Positions 55,999-63,150 of a DNA stretch of 64,000 nt are shown piece by piece; position 1 is the stretch's first letter; each line of letters starts with the position of its first letter. The notes beneath the pieces are model-generated. The model did not search any database and was not told the origin of the DNA. It saw nothing but the letters and a program-made list of their open reading frames with translations. Made by a program: the position numbers and the translations under genes. Source of the stretch: Terramyces sp. JEL0728 (Eukaryota > Chytridiomycota > Chytridiomycetes > Rhizophydiales > Terramycetaceae); NCBI GenBank assembly GCA_027603945.1, contig JADIIU010000020.1, positions 93,151 through 157,150 of the forward strand, read 5' to 3'.

Positions 55999-57048
55999 TT
56001 AATGGCAGTCGACTTTGGTGATTTCTTCCGTGTCAAAATCTTCATTTAATCTGGTGACTGAGAGTTTGTAGATAGGGGCAAATGCAAACGTGCCAGCGCC
56101 ATAGCCAACGACTACTGCGAAAAACAAACCAGTGTTAAAAGACATTACAATTAACATCAACAAGTAACTGATTGAGATTGAGACTAATCTCATCACTCCG
56201 CGAACAAAAGCAACTTTGAATCCTTTAAACCCAGCAGAAGCACCAGCAATGTGAGACCAAATTGGTGCGGTAGATTTGGTAGCAACATCGTTTGCCCATA
56301 CCCGTTCCATTATTGCTAATCCAACATGTAGCGCTTCATGAAGCATCGCAGCAATAAAAGTAACAATCCAGGCGATTGCATACTGTCCATTGTCCTTTGG
56401 CACCCAGCCTTGGAATAGAATATAATCAGTAATACCTCCGTGGAAGAACATTTGCATTTGTGGCACCAAATTACCAGTTGATGGGGTTGCGCACCAAGAC
56501 AGAGTAGGCGCGGCCTTGCACATGGCATTGTACGTTGAACACTGGCTCATAGTAGGCATAGTTTGGCATAGTTGGGCATATGTAGACATTATATCACAAT
56601 TAACGTATCCATCGTTTTCAGATTTGATTTGACAATTTTGGCATCCATCCATATTCATCTGTTGGCAAATATCGTAAACTAATTTCACTGCATCGGCGGT
56701 GGATGGCAATCCTGCAAGCGGTGTAGATGACATGCACTGTTTGTTTACTGAAGTGGATGGAGATGTCCCACACTGACTTGCAAAGCCCTTGCATTCAGAC
56801 ATGCCTGGCATGTCCAAACATAACGAGGTGTAGACAGAGAACGGAGAGCAGTATGAAGCGGTATTTGCGGCAGCCTGGCAATTGGTAGAAAGTGAACAGC
56901 CAACCATTTTAGGCATTTCTGTGCACAGTTGAGAGGATAGTAAAGTAGCATTTGCGTCAGCAATCACATACGAAGCGCAGTTTGTGTCTGTAGCATTTGT
57001 GGGGCAGACAGAGACAGCTTGGCCAAAAAGAACGAGGAACAAAACCAT
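55999..57048 (-). CDS. Ctr-family copper transporter with Cys-rich ectodomain
   Basis: A single-exon ORF of 349 residues. Signal peptide MVLFLVLFGQAVSV precedes an ectodomain of about 180 residues with some 20 Cys and three spaced repeats of the form L-C-x2-MP-x-M-x2-C (LCTEMPKMVGC, LCLDMPGMSEC, LCQTMPTMSQC). A Ctr core follows: VPQMQMFFHGG Met motif, TM1 (AIAWIVTFIAAMLHEALHV), TM2 with MLIVM (MxxxM copper gate) and TM3 with GYGAG (GxxxG packing). Ctr trimers import Cu(I). The Met/Cys repeats probably capture or hand over copper, which is inference. A TATA-like CCTATAAATA lies about 22-35 bp upstream of the ATG. Confidence 0.88.
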   Translation of the reverse strand: MVLFLVLFGQAVSVCPTNATDTNCASYVIADANATLLSSQLCTEMPKMVGCSLSTNCQAAANTASYCSPFSVYTSLCLDMPGMSECKGFASQCGTSPSTSVNKQCMSSTPLAGLPSTADAVKLVYDICQQMNMDGCQNCQIKSENDGYVNCDIMSTYAQLCQTMPTMSQCSTYNAMCKAAPTLSWCATPSTGNLVPQMQMFFHGGITDYILFQGWVPKDNGQYAIAWIVTFIAAMLHEALHVGLAIMERVWANDVATKSTAPIWSHIAGASAGFKGFKVAFVRGVMRLVSISISYLLMLIVMSFNTGLFFAVVVGYGAGTFAFAPIYKLSVTRLNEDFDTEEITKVDCH

Positions 57049-57449
57049 TTTCTTGCGTCTTTTTCGCCCTAGTATTTATAGGAAAGTAAAAAACGCCACC
57101 CATTCTTGAAGTTGAGTCAATGTTTTGAAACTAATATTTACAGCGCCAGTCAAGTTCTGGTTGGTGCTGAAGTAGCAGTGCATATCTTTCCGCTAAACTT
57201 GGAATTTTGAAAGCGAGGCAAGTTTGAGAAAATCAAAATCAAATTGTGGTGCACCGACTTGAAGTGAGGGATTTTGGCTGTGACTGAATCATAAGGTAGG
57301 TCCTATTTATCCGCGCGATACATAATACATGGTCGATTTGTTAAGGTTGGCGGTTAGTAGCCACGTATTATTGTCTGAACTTGGCTAGATCCGCGATAAC
57401 GATCACAAAGACAATAGCAGAACACCTAAACCATATAAGTAATGCGGTG
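57049..57449. other. Divergent promoter region (Ctr and MOCS3-like genes)
   Basis: About 400 bp separates the two divergent start codons. A TATA-like element for the Ctr gene is at 57070-57083 (minus). Possible copper-response elements were looked for by eye but none was convincing. No gene was recognised. Confidence 0.4.
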
Positions 57450-58671
57450 ATGTTTCCTCTGGCAATTTTTCAAATGCAAAAAACAGAACTTACGAATGAA
57501 GAAATCTCCCGATATTCTCGCCAGCTACTTTTACCATGCATCGGAACAGCAGGACAGGAAAAGATAGTTAAAGCGGCTGTATTGGTTGTTGGAGCAGGAG
57601 GTCTTGGTTCACCAGTATTGTTGTATCTTGCAGCAGCCGGTGTGGGTAAATTAGGTATAGTGGACTACGACAATTTAGAAACAAGCAACTTGCAGAGACA
57701 AATAGCCCACTCTGAAAAGCATGTCGGAACACCAAAAGTTGAATCTGCAAAATCAACCGTACAAAATCTGAATTCCAACACCAAAGTCGAAACGTACAAT
57801 TTATTGATTGATAAATCAAACGCAATGGAGATTGTGAGAGATTTTGATGTTGTTGTGGATGCGACTGATAATGTTGCAACCAGATATCTCTTGAATGATG
57901 CATGCGTGTTTCTAAAGAAGCCACTCGTATCTGCAGGAGCTCTCCGTATGGATGGCCAGCTGACTGTATACAATCATAATGGAGGTCCATGTTACAGGTG
58001 TGTCTTTCCGACTCCTCCGCCGGCAGAAACAGTAACAAATTGCAATGACGGAGGAGTATTAGGCGTAATCACGGGTATAATGGGTTCAATTCAAGCTCTT
58101 GAGGTTTTGAAAATTATAACTGGAATGGAATCTTCGTATGTCCAAAAGATGCTTCTATTTGACGGCATTTCAGGATCTTTCAGACAAATCAAAATCAGAC
58201 CAAGAAATCCAAAGTGCCAAGCATGTGGAGATCAGCCAACCATCACCGAACTGATTGATTACGTACAGTTTTGTGGAGCTGGAGCTCACGACAAAACACA
58301 AAGTCTAAATATACTAGACGACAAGCATCGAATTACAGTTTACGATTACAAAAATATTAGAGAAAGCAAGCAGGAGCATATACTATTAGATGTAAGAGAA
58401 AGAGTGCAGTTTGATATTTGCTCACTTGAAAATGCTGTCCACATCCCTTTTGCCAATCTGAATAAAAATCTAGATAAATTGGATCAGGAAAATCCTAATC
58501 AATACCCAGGTACTTTAATTTAACCCAGTGTATGTTGTGTGCAGGAGAGGGAACGACTCACAGTTGGCAGTCAGTTTGCTGAGAGAAAATGGAATTGGCA
58601 ACTGCTTTGATATAGCTGGCGGGCTGGATGAATGGGCAGCAAAGATTGACCATACATTTCCAACTTATTAA
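57450..58671 (+). CDS. MOCS3/UBA4 sulfur-carrier activating enzyme (ThiF plus rhodanese)
   Basis: Spliced length is 400 residues with one 19-nt intron (58510-58528). The E1-like ThiF domain carries the VLVVGAGGLGSPVLLYLAAA nucleotide loop, DNLETSNLQRQ, VVDATDNVATRYLLND, CxxC zinc pairs (PCYRCVF, CQACG) and the adenylation/thioester region. The C-terminal rhodanese domain (LLDVRERVQFDIC) ends in the active loop VCRRGNDSQ and GGLDEWA. It activates Urm1 and MOCS2A for tRNA thiolation and molybdopterin synthesis. The start could also be the Met at 57474 (MQKTELTNEE). Confidence 0.95.
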
Positions 58672-58718
58672 TAAAAATTGATACAATGGTGGATGAACTT
58701 TGCAAATTTAGAGTTTAT

Positions 58719-60085
58719 TTAACGAAGGATTTCAGAGAGTGATTTTGGATCAGCGTCTTCTTGGATTCTTCCAGCTTTACCCAATCCATTACCGCTTTCA
58801 TCAAATCTATTCTTATGAGTACCTAGCATTACATGTAATTACCTGTGTAAAGAGTATGGTCAGTTAATCTTTGAATAATGTCAGTATTGACAGTGAAAGA
58901 AACGTTAGGATCAAGTTTAGGGATGGTGCCTGCTTCAACTATATCCTGATACAATTGCTCAAAGGCTCCATCGCCATATTCTTCGTACTTGATTCCAGCT
59001 AGGAGAATTAATCCTTCAATAAATTGTTTCTTGTCGATTTTACGAGCAGTTTTGGCTTTGACTCTGTTAAAGACAATGTCGACATCAATAGTGGTCAAGC
59101 TTTTGGAAACTATTCCGCAGTCCTTGCAGACTTTGGCAAATTTAGTCCCATCCATGGTAAAAGTGGCATTGGGATCAACCTTACCGCTTCCAAATTGACA
59201 GAAGGATTGGAACACTTGATAAAGAGTAGCAGTTTGTTCTTTTGAAGCTGCAGACAAATTTGCTTTAGGTGTGCCGGGAGAAGTGGATTGGCGAGCAACT
59301 GTTCGCTTTGGTGGAGTTTGCTTTACAGTAGTTCTTGGCAAAGTAGTTCTGTTTCCAGTTGGTGATAACGCTCTTTGCAATGAGCGGTAAACAGGGAATG
59401 ATTCTTCTACACTTGGAATTTTCTTTTCTTGTTGTACTATTAATTGGCCGATTAATTCAAAATTCAGCTCAGAAGCATTCTTTTTGATTGAATCGTATTC
59501 CCTTGGCAATGAAGCCAAGAGGTAAAGTGTACCTAAATCATCAACAGAAATAGTAGGCCCAGCTACTGATTTGATAGTATTGATAATTGCACTGAATTCA
59601 TTGAGAGATGCTTTCATTGATTGTCCTGGCTTAAATGCAGCCAAATTAGAGAATGCGCTCACACAAACAGGAATATTGTATTTTGGTACTGGAATTTCTT
59701 GTTGAGTAGCAACTGGTGACGCTTCAGGGGCAGAAACTGGAGTTGCAACAAAAGTAACTGGAGGCGAATTCAAAGCTGGAGGTTCAACAAAAGTAACTGG
59801 AGGCGAATTCAAAGTTGCAGTTCCTTCCTTGAAATAATCCGCCAAGAATAGCCAGATAAGAGGACCTTGTAATTCCTTTACCATGCCAACAAATCCATCG
59901 CTCAAATTCAACAGAATTGCTTCCTTTGCACCTGCATCATGAACAACAGTTGATTTGGCTTGATCCCATAAATCCTCTGCTTTTAGCATTGAAAGCATTC
60001 TGAATTTCCATAATGTCCAGTTGCTATCATCCAGTTTCAATCCAATGCTGTAACCAGATTTTAAGGAGGAGTCTGTGGGTTTCAT
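58719..60085 (-). CDS. Ty1/copia Gag-like domain fused to TPPP/p25-alpha domain
   Basis: Spliced length is 448 residues, with one 20-nt intron (58823-58842). Residues about 10-45 (GLKLDDSNWTLWKFRMLSM) and about 135-225 (MKASLNEFSAIINTIKS, YLLASLPREYDSIKK, ELIGQLIVQQEKKIP) match copia-type Gag (DUF4219/UBN2). A duplicated PPVTFV tract separates them. Residues about 285-448 form a complete p25-alpha domain: VFQSFCQFGSGK, DGTKFAKVCKDCGI, DIVFNRVKAKTARKIDKKQF, then YTGTHKNRFDESGNGLGKAG and RIQEDADPKSLSEILR. No protease, integrase or RT is encoded nearby. TPPP proteins bundle microtubules and correlate with flagella, so a domesticated Gag fused to a microtubule-binding module is inferred. Confidence 0.85.
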
Positions 60086-60350
60086 TTAAAGTTGGCTAGA
60101 GTTTTGCTTGGACAAAAATCGCCTTTTTCAATGCCACAGTTGTGAGAGTGAATTCCAATGGAAGGAGTGATTATATAATCTGTATGCAGACCAGACAAGA
60201 AGGATACTCTTTTTAAGAGATCTGCTTGAGATACGTAGAGCCATTTCTGTCCAACAGGCCAAACGACTGGAAACCATGGAAACAACTTATCATTGTTCCA
60301 ACCAAATTGATATGATTGCACTGGCACGAATTCTTTACCACCACATATTA
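60082..60350 (-). CDS. Short coding-looking segment upstream of the Gag-TPPP gene
   Basis: A minus-strand frame reads YQFGWNNDKLFPWFPVVWPV, KWLYVSQADLLKRVSFLSGL and HSHNCGIEKGDFCPSK to a TGA that overlaps the ATG of the Gag-TPPP ORF. An upstream hydrophobic stretch (KLYLLIGIICG) could be joined through an 18-nt GT-AG segment, resembling a signal peptide, but no ATG is available. It may be an unresolved small gene or a relic. No family was recognised. Confidence 0.3.
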
Positions 60351-60382
60351 TTCCAATCAGTAAATATAATTTTCGTTTTCAA

Positions 60383-61478
60383 ATGCGAATCAACAGGAGA
60401 TGCTTGGGACGACAGAAAGCGCCATTTCTGATATTAATCATTCTATTCATCACTCTACTAATATTTATACCAAATACAGTCAACCACTATTTTCACCATT
60501 TGACTTATGCTACAAGACCATTGTGGGAGGCAAAACCAGAGCCATTTAATATGATTACGCACTACTATGCACCTGGAATAGAATTGTGCGGACTGCATAA
60601 TTGGACGCAGCGCAAGACAGAGGCAAAGGTATTCGATGCGATCCTATTCAGTGTGGAATTGGATTTACTTGAAGTAAGTTGGATTAACATAGATTCGATT
60701 ACATGAACTGTATGACGTGGTGGAAAAGTTTATTATCATAGAATCAAATTCGACTTTTACTGGTAAAGAAAAACCATTGCACTTTGATTTGAACAAGGAG
60801 AGATTCAAATTCGCCAAAGACAAAATAATATACGAATCCATTAAAGTACCAACAAAGAAGAAAGGACAGGATGCGTTTGATTTGGAAGCTTTCCATAGGA
60901 TATCAATGAATAAAGTGATTGCCAGTGCTGGTGTAAAAAAAGACGACTGGGTTTTGATGATGGATGTGGATGAAATTCCTTCTTTGCACACAGTCGAATT
61001 ATTTAGGAAATGTGACGGAATACCCGATATTATTCACTTGCAGTTGCGCAATTACATTTATTCTTTTGAATTCTTGCTGGATATGAACAGTTGGAGGGGG
61101 AAAGCTGTCAAATACCCCTCAAGCTCTGGATATTCGCATTCCAGAAAGTCCGATTACATGCTAGCAGATGCAGGCTGGCATTGTTCGTTTTGTTTTAGCA
61201 CTATTGAAGATTTCGTTTTCAAGATGACGGGCTATTCTCATGCAGACAGGGTGCACTACGATTACATTAAAAATCCAGATCGAATACAAAAAGTAATATG
61301 TGAAGGATCGGATATATTCGACATGCTACCTGAAAGTAATACGTATAAAGATATGTTTCAAAAATTGGGAAAGTTGTCCAAGCAAACTTCTGCCATAGAG
61401 TTGCCAAAATACTTGCTGGAGCATCCTAAAAGGTTTTCCTACTTACTACCTGGAGGGTGTAAAAGAAATACTCAATAA
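60383..61478 (+). CDS. GT17 glycosyltransferase (MGAT3-like), type II membrane protein
   Basis: Spliced length is 358 residues with one 19-nt intron (60674-60692). A type II anchor (FLILIILFITLLIFI) follows a basic cytosolic N terminus. GT17 motifs: VFDAILFSVELDLLEIRLHE, VEKFIIIESNSTFTGKEKPL, the DxD in LMMDVDEIPS and GWHCSFCFSTIEDFVFKM. GT17 enzymes (MGAT3) add bisecting GlcNAc to N-glycans in the Golgi, but fungal members have no proven acceptor. Intron position and motif order support the model. Confidence 0.92.
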
Positions 61479-61504
61479 ATATCAAAACTTTTTTCAAATT
61501 TTGA

Positions 61505-62110
61505 ATGATTCCCAAAGGAACAAAAAACATAATATTTGACTTGGGCGGAGTATTTATAGACGTTGATTATTCAAAAACCAAGTCTGCATTTGAATCACTT
61601 GGCATCCACAATTTTGACAACATCTTCACCCAAAATTCTTCAACTTTACTTTTCAAGCAGCTTGAAATTGGCCAAATACAGCCGTTAGAGTTTTATTCAT
61701 TATTTCGAAAGGAAGCGCAATTGGATATAACAGACAAGCAAATACAAGATGCTTGGAACGGGATGCTTGGCGAATGGTTCATAGACCAATTGGGATTTGT
61801 GGAAACGTTACCTTACAGAATCTTTTTATTTTCAAATACCAATGAGATCCATCATGATTTCTTTATCGATTCATTAAATAATCGCAAGGATCTCGTAGTA
61901 GTATTTGAAAAAGTATATTATTCTCACACTTATGGGCAACGAAAGCCAGATTTGGTGTCTTTTAGTGGAATATTGAAAGAGAATGGTTTGGAACCAAGCG
62001 AGACTGTTTTTATCGATGATTCGCAAAAGAATGTTGAAGCTGCGCGCAAAGTTGGAATTCATGGTATATATTTGAAACCTCCGCAAAAGGTTTCCTCGTT
62101 ATTTCAATAA
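61505..62110 (+). CDS. HAD-superfamily hydrolase, bacterial (YihX-like) type
   Basis: A single-exon ORF of 201 residues. HAD motifs: motif I KNIIFDLGGVFIDVDYSKT (nucleophile Asp, although the +2 Asp is Gly as in several YihX-type HADs), motif II FLFSNTNE, motif III Lys in GQRKPD and motif IV FIDDSQKNVEAA. The cap pattern and phrases such as IIFDLGGV-DVDY and DAWNGMLGE recall intronless HAD phosphatases of Bacteroidota from memory. A phosphatase on small sugar or nucleotide phosphates is likely; substrate unknown. A bacterial origin is inference. Confidence 0.85.
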   Translation: MIPKGTKNIIFDLGGVFIDVDYSKTKSAFESLGIHNFDNIFTQNSSTLLFKQLEIGQIQPLEFYSLFRKEAQLDITDKQIQDAWNGMLGEWFIDQLGFVETLPYRIFLFSNTNEIHHDFFIDSLNNRKDLVVVFEKVYYSHTYGQRKPDLVSFSGILKENGLEPSETVFIDDSQKNVEAARKVGIHGIYLKPPQKVSSLFQ

Positions 62111-62163
62111 ATAATCAGTGTAGATTCAAGACAATACCTACGTCCACAACTTCTTTTTTTAAC

Positions 62164-63150
62164 ATGAATCTGTCCAAGAAACTTACTTCAAGAATAACAC
62201 AACTCACATCTCTGCCATTCGGACCATATTCAACTCAAGAATCGCATGCGTATCTAGTTGGAAACGGAAAGGAAAGAGTGCTCATTGATACAGGAACTGG
62301 GCATCAAATGTTTATTCCGCTACTGCAACAAACGCTAGCACAGGAAAAAGCAATAGTAAAGTCTGTATTGATAACCCATCAACATCAGGGCCATTTCAGT
62401 GGATTTGATTTGACGGAATACAATGTTTATGGATTCAAACCACATAAAAAATACCCTAAAATACAAATTTTAAAGGATGGACAGCTTCTCCGTGCTGATG
62501 GCATCACTATCAAAGTGGTCGCTACTCCTGGCCACTCTTCTGATCACGCATCCTTTTATCTGCAGGAAGAGGAGTGTTTATTTAGCGGAGATTCAATTGC
62601 TGCTCGAGTAACAAATAATGAGACGAAATATTTATACAACAACCTCATAGAATTCAAGAAATCACTTGCTAAACAGTCCCAGCTTGTTCCAAAGATATGT
62701 ATGCAAGGACATGGGGATATTTCAATCAAAGCTTATCAGATGTTGGAGAATGCACTGGCAGAGATTAACAACATCGATAGACTGATAACTGACTTGCTTC
62801 GAAACAATTCGTCAACCACCAAGCTGCTGATTGAAAAATATAGTGAGCACAAAGGAATTGCCAAGGGGAACGATCTGTTGGTTCTGTCCGGCTTGATACG
62901 CGTTCATTTGACTCTGCTGGAAAGAGACGGGATAATTTTCAAACGTAGTGTTGCTTATGACGCTCATGGAAATGCAGATGGTAAGATTAAAGGGCCAGGA
63001 GGATTAGAAATGAACAAGATTTTTTCGCTAATTCAAGAATCAAGAAAAAAAGACTTTGCCAGTCAAATCAATGTTAATCACAAGATTGATCTGCATTCTA
63101 TTCACTCTGATTACCAGATATCTCCAAACACAACTTGGGCACTAAAATAA
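62164..63150 (+). CDS. LACTB2-like metallo-beta-lactamase fold protein with altered metal motif
   Basis: A single-exon ORF of 328 residues. The N-terminal MBL domain has VLIDTGTGHQMFIP, the metal motif THQHQGHFSG, ATPGHSSDHASFYL, CLFSGDSIAA and MQGHGDIS; a C-terminal helical winged-helix-like tail follows (LTDLLRNNSS...). Layout matches LACTB2, a mitochondrial single-strand RNA endonuclease. In the canonical THxHxDH motif the Asp is Gly here (codon GGC at about 62390), while other ligands are kept, so the second metal site is probably impaired. Activity on RNA or other substrates is uncertain. Confidence 0.88.
   Translation: MNLSKKLTSRITQLTSLPFGPYSTQESHAYLVGNGKERVLIDTGTGHQMFIPLLQQTLAQEKAIVKSVLITHQHQGHFSGFDLTEYNVYGFKPHKKYPKIQILKDGQLLRADGITIKVVATPGHSSDHASFYLQEEECLFSGDSIAARVTNNETKYLYNNLIEFKKSLAKQSQLVPKICMQGHGDISIKAYQMLENALAEINNIDRLITDLLRNNSSTTKLLIEKYSEHKGIAKGNDLLVLSGLIRVHLTLLERDGIIFKRSVAYDAHGNADGKIKGPGGLEMNKIFSLIQESRKKDFASQINVNHKIDLHSIHSDYQISPNTTWALK

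Follow-up and report, generated by a model that had tools for sequence, protein, structure and literature searches.

Can the capsid of a retrotransposon be put to work on microtubules? The question is raised by a gene of the chytrid Terramyces sp. JEL0728 that lies within a stretch of 64,000 nucleotides of contig JADIIU010000020.1 (hereafter, the window), on the minus strand from 60085 to 58719, and whose 448-residue product combines an N-terminal half resembling the Gag capsid of Ty1/copia retrotransposons with a C-terminal p25-alpha (TPPP) domain. A reading of the DNA made from its letters alone, termed the sequence-only reading, had proposed a domesticated copia-type Gag fused to a TPPP protein, and the gene is almost certainly a real and conserved fusion of this kind. 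The interpretation favored here, with a probability of about 0.5, is that a domesticated Ty1/copia-type Gag capsid, in frame with a complete p25-alpha domain and conserved in the Terramycetaceae, would combine capsid self-association with the cross-linking of microtubules.

The capsid half and the TPPP half

In the full protein, the p25-alpha family of Pfam is matched at E = 6.3e-35 (121 bits; cut-off, 22.6), and TPPP chains in the PDB are matched by the p25-alpha part, the best at 1.9e-24. The Gag families, for which a Pfam search had also been proposed, gave a divided result. The window protein scores 21.4 bits with Retrotran_gag_2 and 20.1 bits with DUF4219, below the cut-off of 27 bits that applies to both, and in the two orthologues from Boothiomyces Retrotran_gag_2 lies above the cut-off (31.2 and 27.2 bits) and DUF4219 narrowly under it (26.4 bits each). 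Reciprocal profile comparisons recover the same relationship. A profile of copia Gags scores 21.1-42.0 bits on all five fusion Gags, with 8.1 bits as the best among 5000 shuffles, and a profile of fusion Gags scores 27.5-37.3 bits on 3/3 copia Gags that had been found with that very profile, with 10.9 bits as the best among 3000 shuffles. The third copia Gag (P0013) reached an E value of only 0.78 in the homologue search with the fusion Gags, and the identity between the fusion capsid and the nearest copia Gags found is ~25%.

In the predicted structure, the capsid N-terminal domain (NTD) is modeled with a predicted local distance difference test (pLDDT) score of 80-86 over residues 21-80, and the capsid C-terminal domain (CTD) comprises five helices with scores of about 53-71; the insert between the two domains (residues 89-133) and the linker that follows the CTD (residues 225-279) fall below 50. 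The sequence-only reading had looked to structure prediction for a capsid fold, and what emerged is a similarity to the Copia capsid, which is a supporting and less independent line, and no Foldseek match to the fusion capsid at E<=0.001. A PDB search with a profile built from the fusions only returned a single irrelevant match (E 1.2). Copia was matched in the PDB at 3.9e-25 by a further profile (A4), a match that is not counted as independent because copia Gags were included in the A4 alignment. On the strength of the Pfam matches in the orthologues, the reciprocal profile scores far above those of shuffles and, less independently, the structural similarity, the N-terminal half is, as judged by sequence, homologous to the Ty1/copia Gag capsid, and the proposed fusion of such a capsid to TPPP is borne out. 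The low Gag scores of the window protein would suit an artefact, be it two neighboring genes taken for one or an N terminus that is helical by chance; given the shuffle and profile controls, and the same continuous frame in three species and at a second locus, this is hardly credible.

The p25-alpha domain places the protein in the TPPP-like superfamily, and the Gag part sets it apart from the strict-sense, long-type TPPPs, which have p25-alpha and no other domain (as stated in the excerpts of PMC3498115; the papers cited by PMC number here are drawn on in excerpt). The 448-residue product contains one p25-alpha stretch only, and the second, partial p25-alpha domain of the fungal type was not found in it. 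A Gag-free fungal-type TPPP with a repeated RLTD..YTG.HK motif is encoded elsewhere in the same genome (C137), by a gene whose intron positions differ from those of the Gag-TPPP gene.

Conservation in the Terramycetaceae and a second locus

The sequence-only reading had suggested that relatives be searched for the same fusion, and it is present in two species of Boothiomyces and at a second locus of the Terramyces genome. Boothiomyces macroporosus and Boothiomyces sp. JEL0866, which like Terramyces (order Rhizophydiales) belong to the Terramycetaceae, encode orthologues of 77% identity whose frames are open across Gag and p25-alpha. The public Boothiomyces models (P0005 and P0006) lack the TPPP C-terminal motif and stop instead at TLYTGILI and TLYTGYFF; a mini-intron in the position of the Terramyces one was probably missed in them and its first bases read as coding sequence. 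Three fusion proteins were among the four matches of one protein search and among the seven of another, in which only 8000 candidates were scored. Gag-free TPPPs of Gorgonomyces, Entophlyctis, and Polyrhizophydium were matched as well, which is no proof that those genera lack the fusion. In an unrooted p25-alpha tree of small sampling and hand-cut rows, the five fusion rows stand opposite five Gag-free ones across one branch with a support of 100/100.

The second, diverged Gag-TPPP locus, on contig C26, is open after removal of one 19-nucleotide intron and encodes 349 or 343 residues. Its protein is missing from both protein searches, so public sets miss such genes. The protein lacks the Pro/Thr/Ser insert and the TPPP C-terminal motif and keeps the core and the linker, which has a computed isoelectric point of 12.0 and five [ST]P sites; the corresponding values for the window protein are 11.4 (residues 227-284) and four. 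The C26 linker contains a repeat of approximately six residues (GRQTPS/GRETPS type), and the two copies of the locus differ there by six residues in length. Both copies lie within a 46-kb head-to-tail duplicate (44465-90640 and 90641-136751; 98.3% identity) that reaches the contig end; either the assembler put two haplotypes end to end, or the region was tandemly duplicated once. Independent transpositions are ruled out by this shared duplicate, and therefore two Gag-TPPP loci are counted, not three. Over 343 codons the copies show 12 synonymous and 3 non-synonymous differences, of which the Gag part alone contains 2 and 2, making a selection test uninformative on Gag.

Conservation varies along the fusion protein. 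Compared with the orthologues, the identity is 92-94% in p25-alpha, 80-83% in the linker, 75-77% in the capsid CTD, 63% in residues 42-90 (to both), and 33-44% in the insert (residues 91-134). An ordinary TPPP paralogue whose Gag part is an inert passenger or a simple dimerization spacer would agree with the lower conservation of the Gag part relative to p25-alpha, 63-77% over most of its length beyond residues 1-41, and with an insert and a gap that may disturb the capsid fold. Such an extension is nevertheless unlikely, as residues 15-41 of the capsid, 93% identical to both Boothiomyces proteins, match p25-alpha in conservation, and the Gag part has been retained at both Terramyces loci despite their divergence to 27-32% identity (unspliced C26 frame compared).

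Retroelement traces, gene structure, and surroundings

The conservation of the fusion is that of a domesticated gene, and the traces of a retrotransposon that would usually accompany Gag were sought at the locus. No long terminal repeats were found: the longest direct repeat within 56500-62500 is a 39-nucleotide tandem inside the gene, where two such repeats at 59734-59811 form part of the Pro/Thr/Ser-rich insert. The flanking frames tested contain no pol domains, in agreement with the sequence-only reading. Neither the window protein nor the one C26 copy examined has any match (0) to the CCHC spacing, and zf-CCHC has no Pfam match in the Terramyces protein and its two orthologues (P0004-P0006). 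With no long terminal repeats, pol, or zinc knuckle found with the gene, the domesticated reading is upheld. A retroelement with a captured TPPP was rejected, as no LTR-like repeats were found near the gene.

The lost zinc knuckle also bears on RNA carriage, entertained in the sequence-only reading, whereby Arc-like capsids would package RNA and be moved along microtubules or the axoneme. Both capsid domains are retained, the basic linker could bind RNA, and the capsids of Copia are RNA-binding and pass from cell to cell (PMC11835246). In Copia Gag, however, a flexible nucleocapsid (NC) with a zinc finger comes after the capsid, deletion of the NC zinc finger inhibits assembly, and normal assembly needs the NC region and RNA; NC-deleted Copia Gag co-assembles with RNA-carrying wild-type Gag (PMC11835246). 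Because the region that Copia needs for assembly is the one lost here, RNA carriage is very unlikely, and this part of the sequence-only reading is not supported.

In searches of the whole genome, the integrase core profile PF00665 gave 0 matches, and the same profile is positive in 6/14 control genomes. PF07727 (RVT_2) was empty, without a positive control; PF14223 gave nothing in a search that lacks sensitivity, since the known fusions were missed too; and PF13961 detected only the three fusion copies, each below the cut-off. Protein searches of the genome with the window Gag and the copia Gag P0012 likewise returned only the three fusion copies (E 0.005 to 0.18 with P0012). These searches are no more than suggestive of a genome-wide absence of copia elements. 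Two short PF00078 (RVT_1) matches, the sole ones reported, have identical scores and lie ~30 kb apart on contig C42 (56685 and 86416), perhaps on a joined haplotype.

The lack of an integrase-core or RVT_2 match (the latter without a positive control) would fit a restriction factor, in which the capsid part enters and poisons the particles of invading copia elements, as with yeast p22/p18 and Drt2, and those particles are anchored or sequestered on microtubules by TPPP. Drt2 is indeed a domesticated Ty1' capsid CTD that acts as a restriction factor (excerpts of PMC10951436), and the co-assembly of NC-less Copia Gag with the wild type (PMC11835246) points the same way. Restriction is distinctly unlikely all the same: no copia element was found here as a target, which is a weak objection given searches without sensitivity or positive control; even the closest copia Gags found share only ~25% identity with the capsid, while restriction tends to be subfamily-specific; and the 92-94% conservation of TPPP is left unexplained.

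The features of the gene are collected in Table 1. Start and stop codons (60083-60085 and 58719-58721) show the extent 58719..60085 first assigned to the gene to be exact, and the spliced product matches letter for letter the public protein HDV01_003042 (P0004) of Terramyces sp. JEL0728. The claim of one frame in one exon, terminal motif included, holds for a single open frame of 414 codons that covers the Gag-like half and the bulk of p25-alpha, and fails for the motif THKNRFDESGNGLGKAGR, which is encoded behind a 20-nucleotide intron.

Table 1. Features of the Gag-TPPP gene and its product (window coordinates)
Feature	Coordinates	Strand	Remarks
Exon 1	58843..60085	-	residues 1-414 and first base of codon 415; in-frame TAA before ATG
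20-nucleotide intron GTAATTACATGTAATGCTAG	58842-58823	-	GT..AG; interrupts codon 415; removal restores YTG|THKNRF
Exon 2	58822-58719	-	TPPP C-terminal motif THKNRFDESGNGLGKAGR, short tail, stop codon
Capsid N-terminal domain, copia-type	59822..60046	-	residues ~14-88; DUF4219 match residues 18-41
Pro/Thr/Ser-rich insert between both capsid domains	59684..59821	-	residues 89-134; disordered
Capsid C-terminal domain, copia-type	59420..59683	-	residues ~135-222; Retrotran_gag_2 match residues 150-203
Basic Pro/Ser/Thr-rich linker	59234..59419	-	residues 223-284; position of nucleocapsid in copia Gag
p25-alpha (TPPP) core	58843..59233	-	residues 285-414; PF05517 5.6e-24 (exon 1 alone)

The intron agrees with a class of 19-21 nucleotides in the Terramyces genome. 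Over 124 kb of the window and other stretches of the genome, frame-joining GT..AG candidates (15-70 nucleotides, duplicates not merged) peak at this length with 84/600, compared with 20/486 for GT..AC, 22/503 for CT..AG, 18/660 for GA..AG, and 26/650 for GT..TG as same-length controls. Many of the short introns look like GTAA....TAAC/T..YAG. Ultrashort introns, such as those at 58823-58842 and 60674-60692, are apparently the norm in this genome; nothing on them was among the matches listed in a literature search, which is no proof of novelty.

Five flanking frames match a Ctr copper transporter, a ThiF/rhodanese protein (presumably Uba4/MOCS3-like), a family 17 glycosyltransferase (GT17), a HAD hydrolase, and a metallo-beta-lactamase fold, and a sixth, of 98 residues, has no Pfam match. 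This 98-codon frame, at 60082-60378 on the minus strand in the spacer toward the divergent GT17 gene, ends in a TGA that shares bases with the start codon of the Gag-TPPP gene (ATGA); it was dropped as an additional exon, a Pfam match being absent.

Proposed function and comparison with known systems

In TPPP/p25, the disordered regions at the N and C termini contain the two microtubule-binding sites and the core is non-binding. In the study concerned the protein was monomeric in solution, a microtubule-triggered self-association has been proposed, others' reports of dimers are mentioned, and a delta-C construct still bundles microtubules at higher concentration (excerpts of PMC4542545). The C26 protein resembles this construct in having the linker and the core and lacking the C-terminal motif. 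By analogy with the TPPP family, the fusion protein may be expected to bind and bundle microtubules.

In the favored interpretation of a microtubule cross-linker, the capsid NTD and CTD would self-associate, and the basic linker and TPPP tail, having taken over the position of the RNA-binding nucleocapsid, would bind microtubules. The microtubule, a polyanion like RNA, would be the template on which the capsid domains meet: with self-association supplied by the capsid and microtubule binding by the linker and tail, its surface could stand in for RNA. This would yield a multivalent protein that cross-links or stabilizes microtubules, most plausibly at the flagellar base or cytoskeleton of the zoospore, alongside the separate Gag-free fungal-type TPPP. 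The flagellar location is drawn solely from the correlation between p25-alpha and the flagellum argued in the excerpted Orosz papers. Even odds are given to the proposal, made by analogy, that the role of the capsid half is self-association linked to microtubules. The microtubule-associated lattice suggested in the sequence-only reading may thus form. In a tentative and rather unlikely extension, the Gag lattice would be re-templated from RNA to the microtubule, the capsid domains polymerizing on the microtubules of the zoospore into a sheath or a cross-linking lattice; to our knowledge, no domesticated capsid acting as a cytoskeletal scaffold would have preceded it.

Literature searches covered open-licence PMC papers. 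A Gag-TPPP protein is named in no title or abstract start among the papers listed, and neither TPPP, Gag, and fungi nor DUF4219 and p25-alpha co-occur in any one such paper. Term searches of the available text gave 0 occurrences of Terramyces, Boothiomyces, retrotransposon, and gag in PMC9698843, PMC10057920, PMC10459994, and PMC12731214, and of retrotransposon and gag in PMC3498115. Within this literature, the statement that no Gag-TPPP protein has been described stands. Gag domestication and Gag-host fusions are already known; no fusion to a microtubule protein was among the papers listed.

The domesticated Gags Arc, PNMA2, PEG10, Drt2, and the SCAN proteins serve in RNA transfer, transcription, or restriction. 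Unlike the fusion, the SCAN-domain zinc finger proteins are Gypsy-type, contain the CTD only, and are transcription factors. A Gag joined to a microtubule-binding protein would widen capsid domestication to the cytoskeleton, and the fusion offers a clean test of whether a host polymer can re-template capsid self-assembly. Similar to the fusion, Drt2 of yeast is a domesticated Ty1-family Gag in a fungus; it differs in being a capsid CTD with a role in retrotransposon restriction, for which the excerpts of PMC10951436 mention no host domain fused to it. TPPP/p25 (PF05517; 9j4e, 2jrf) shares with the fusion a complete p25-alpha core, the C-terminal THKNRFD..G.G.GKAGR, and a basic disordered segment before the core, and lacks the added Gag domain. 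The chytrid fungal-type TPPP (C137; excerpts of the Orosz papers) belongs to the same p25-alpha family and is found in the same genome, but has its own second, partial p25-alpha repeat and no Gag. The Gag capsid of Drosophila Copia (PDB 8vvw and 8s41; PMC11835246) comprises, like the N-terminal half of the fusion, two helical capsid domains of DUF4219/Retrotran_gag_2-type sequence; the main differences are that the fusion lacks the NC zinc finger, protease, and pol, carries an insert that separates the NTD from the CTD, and has the linker and TPPP in place of NC.
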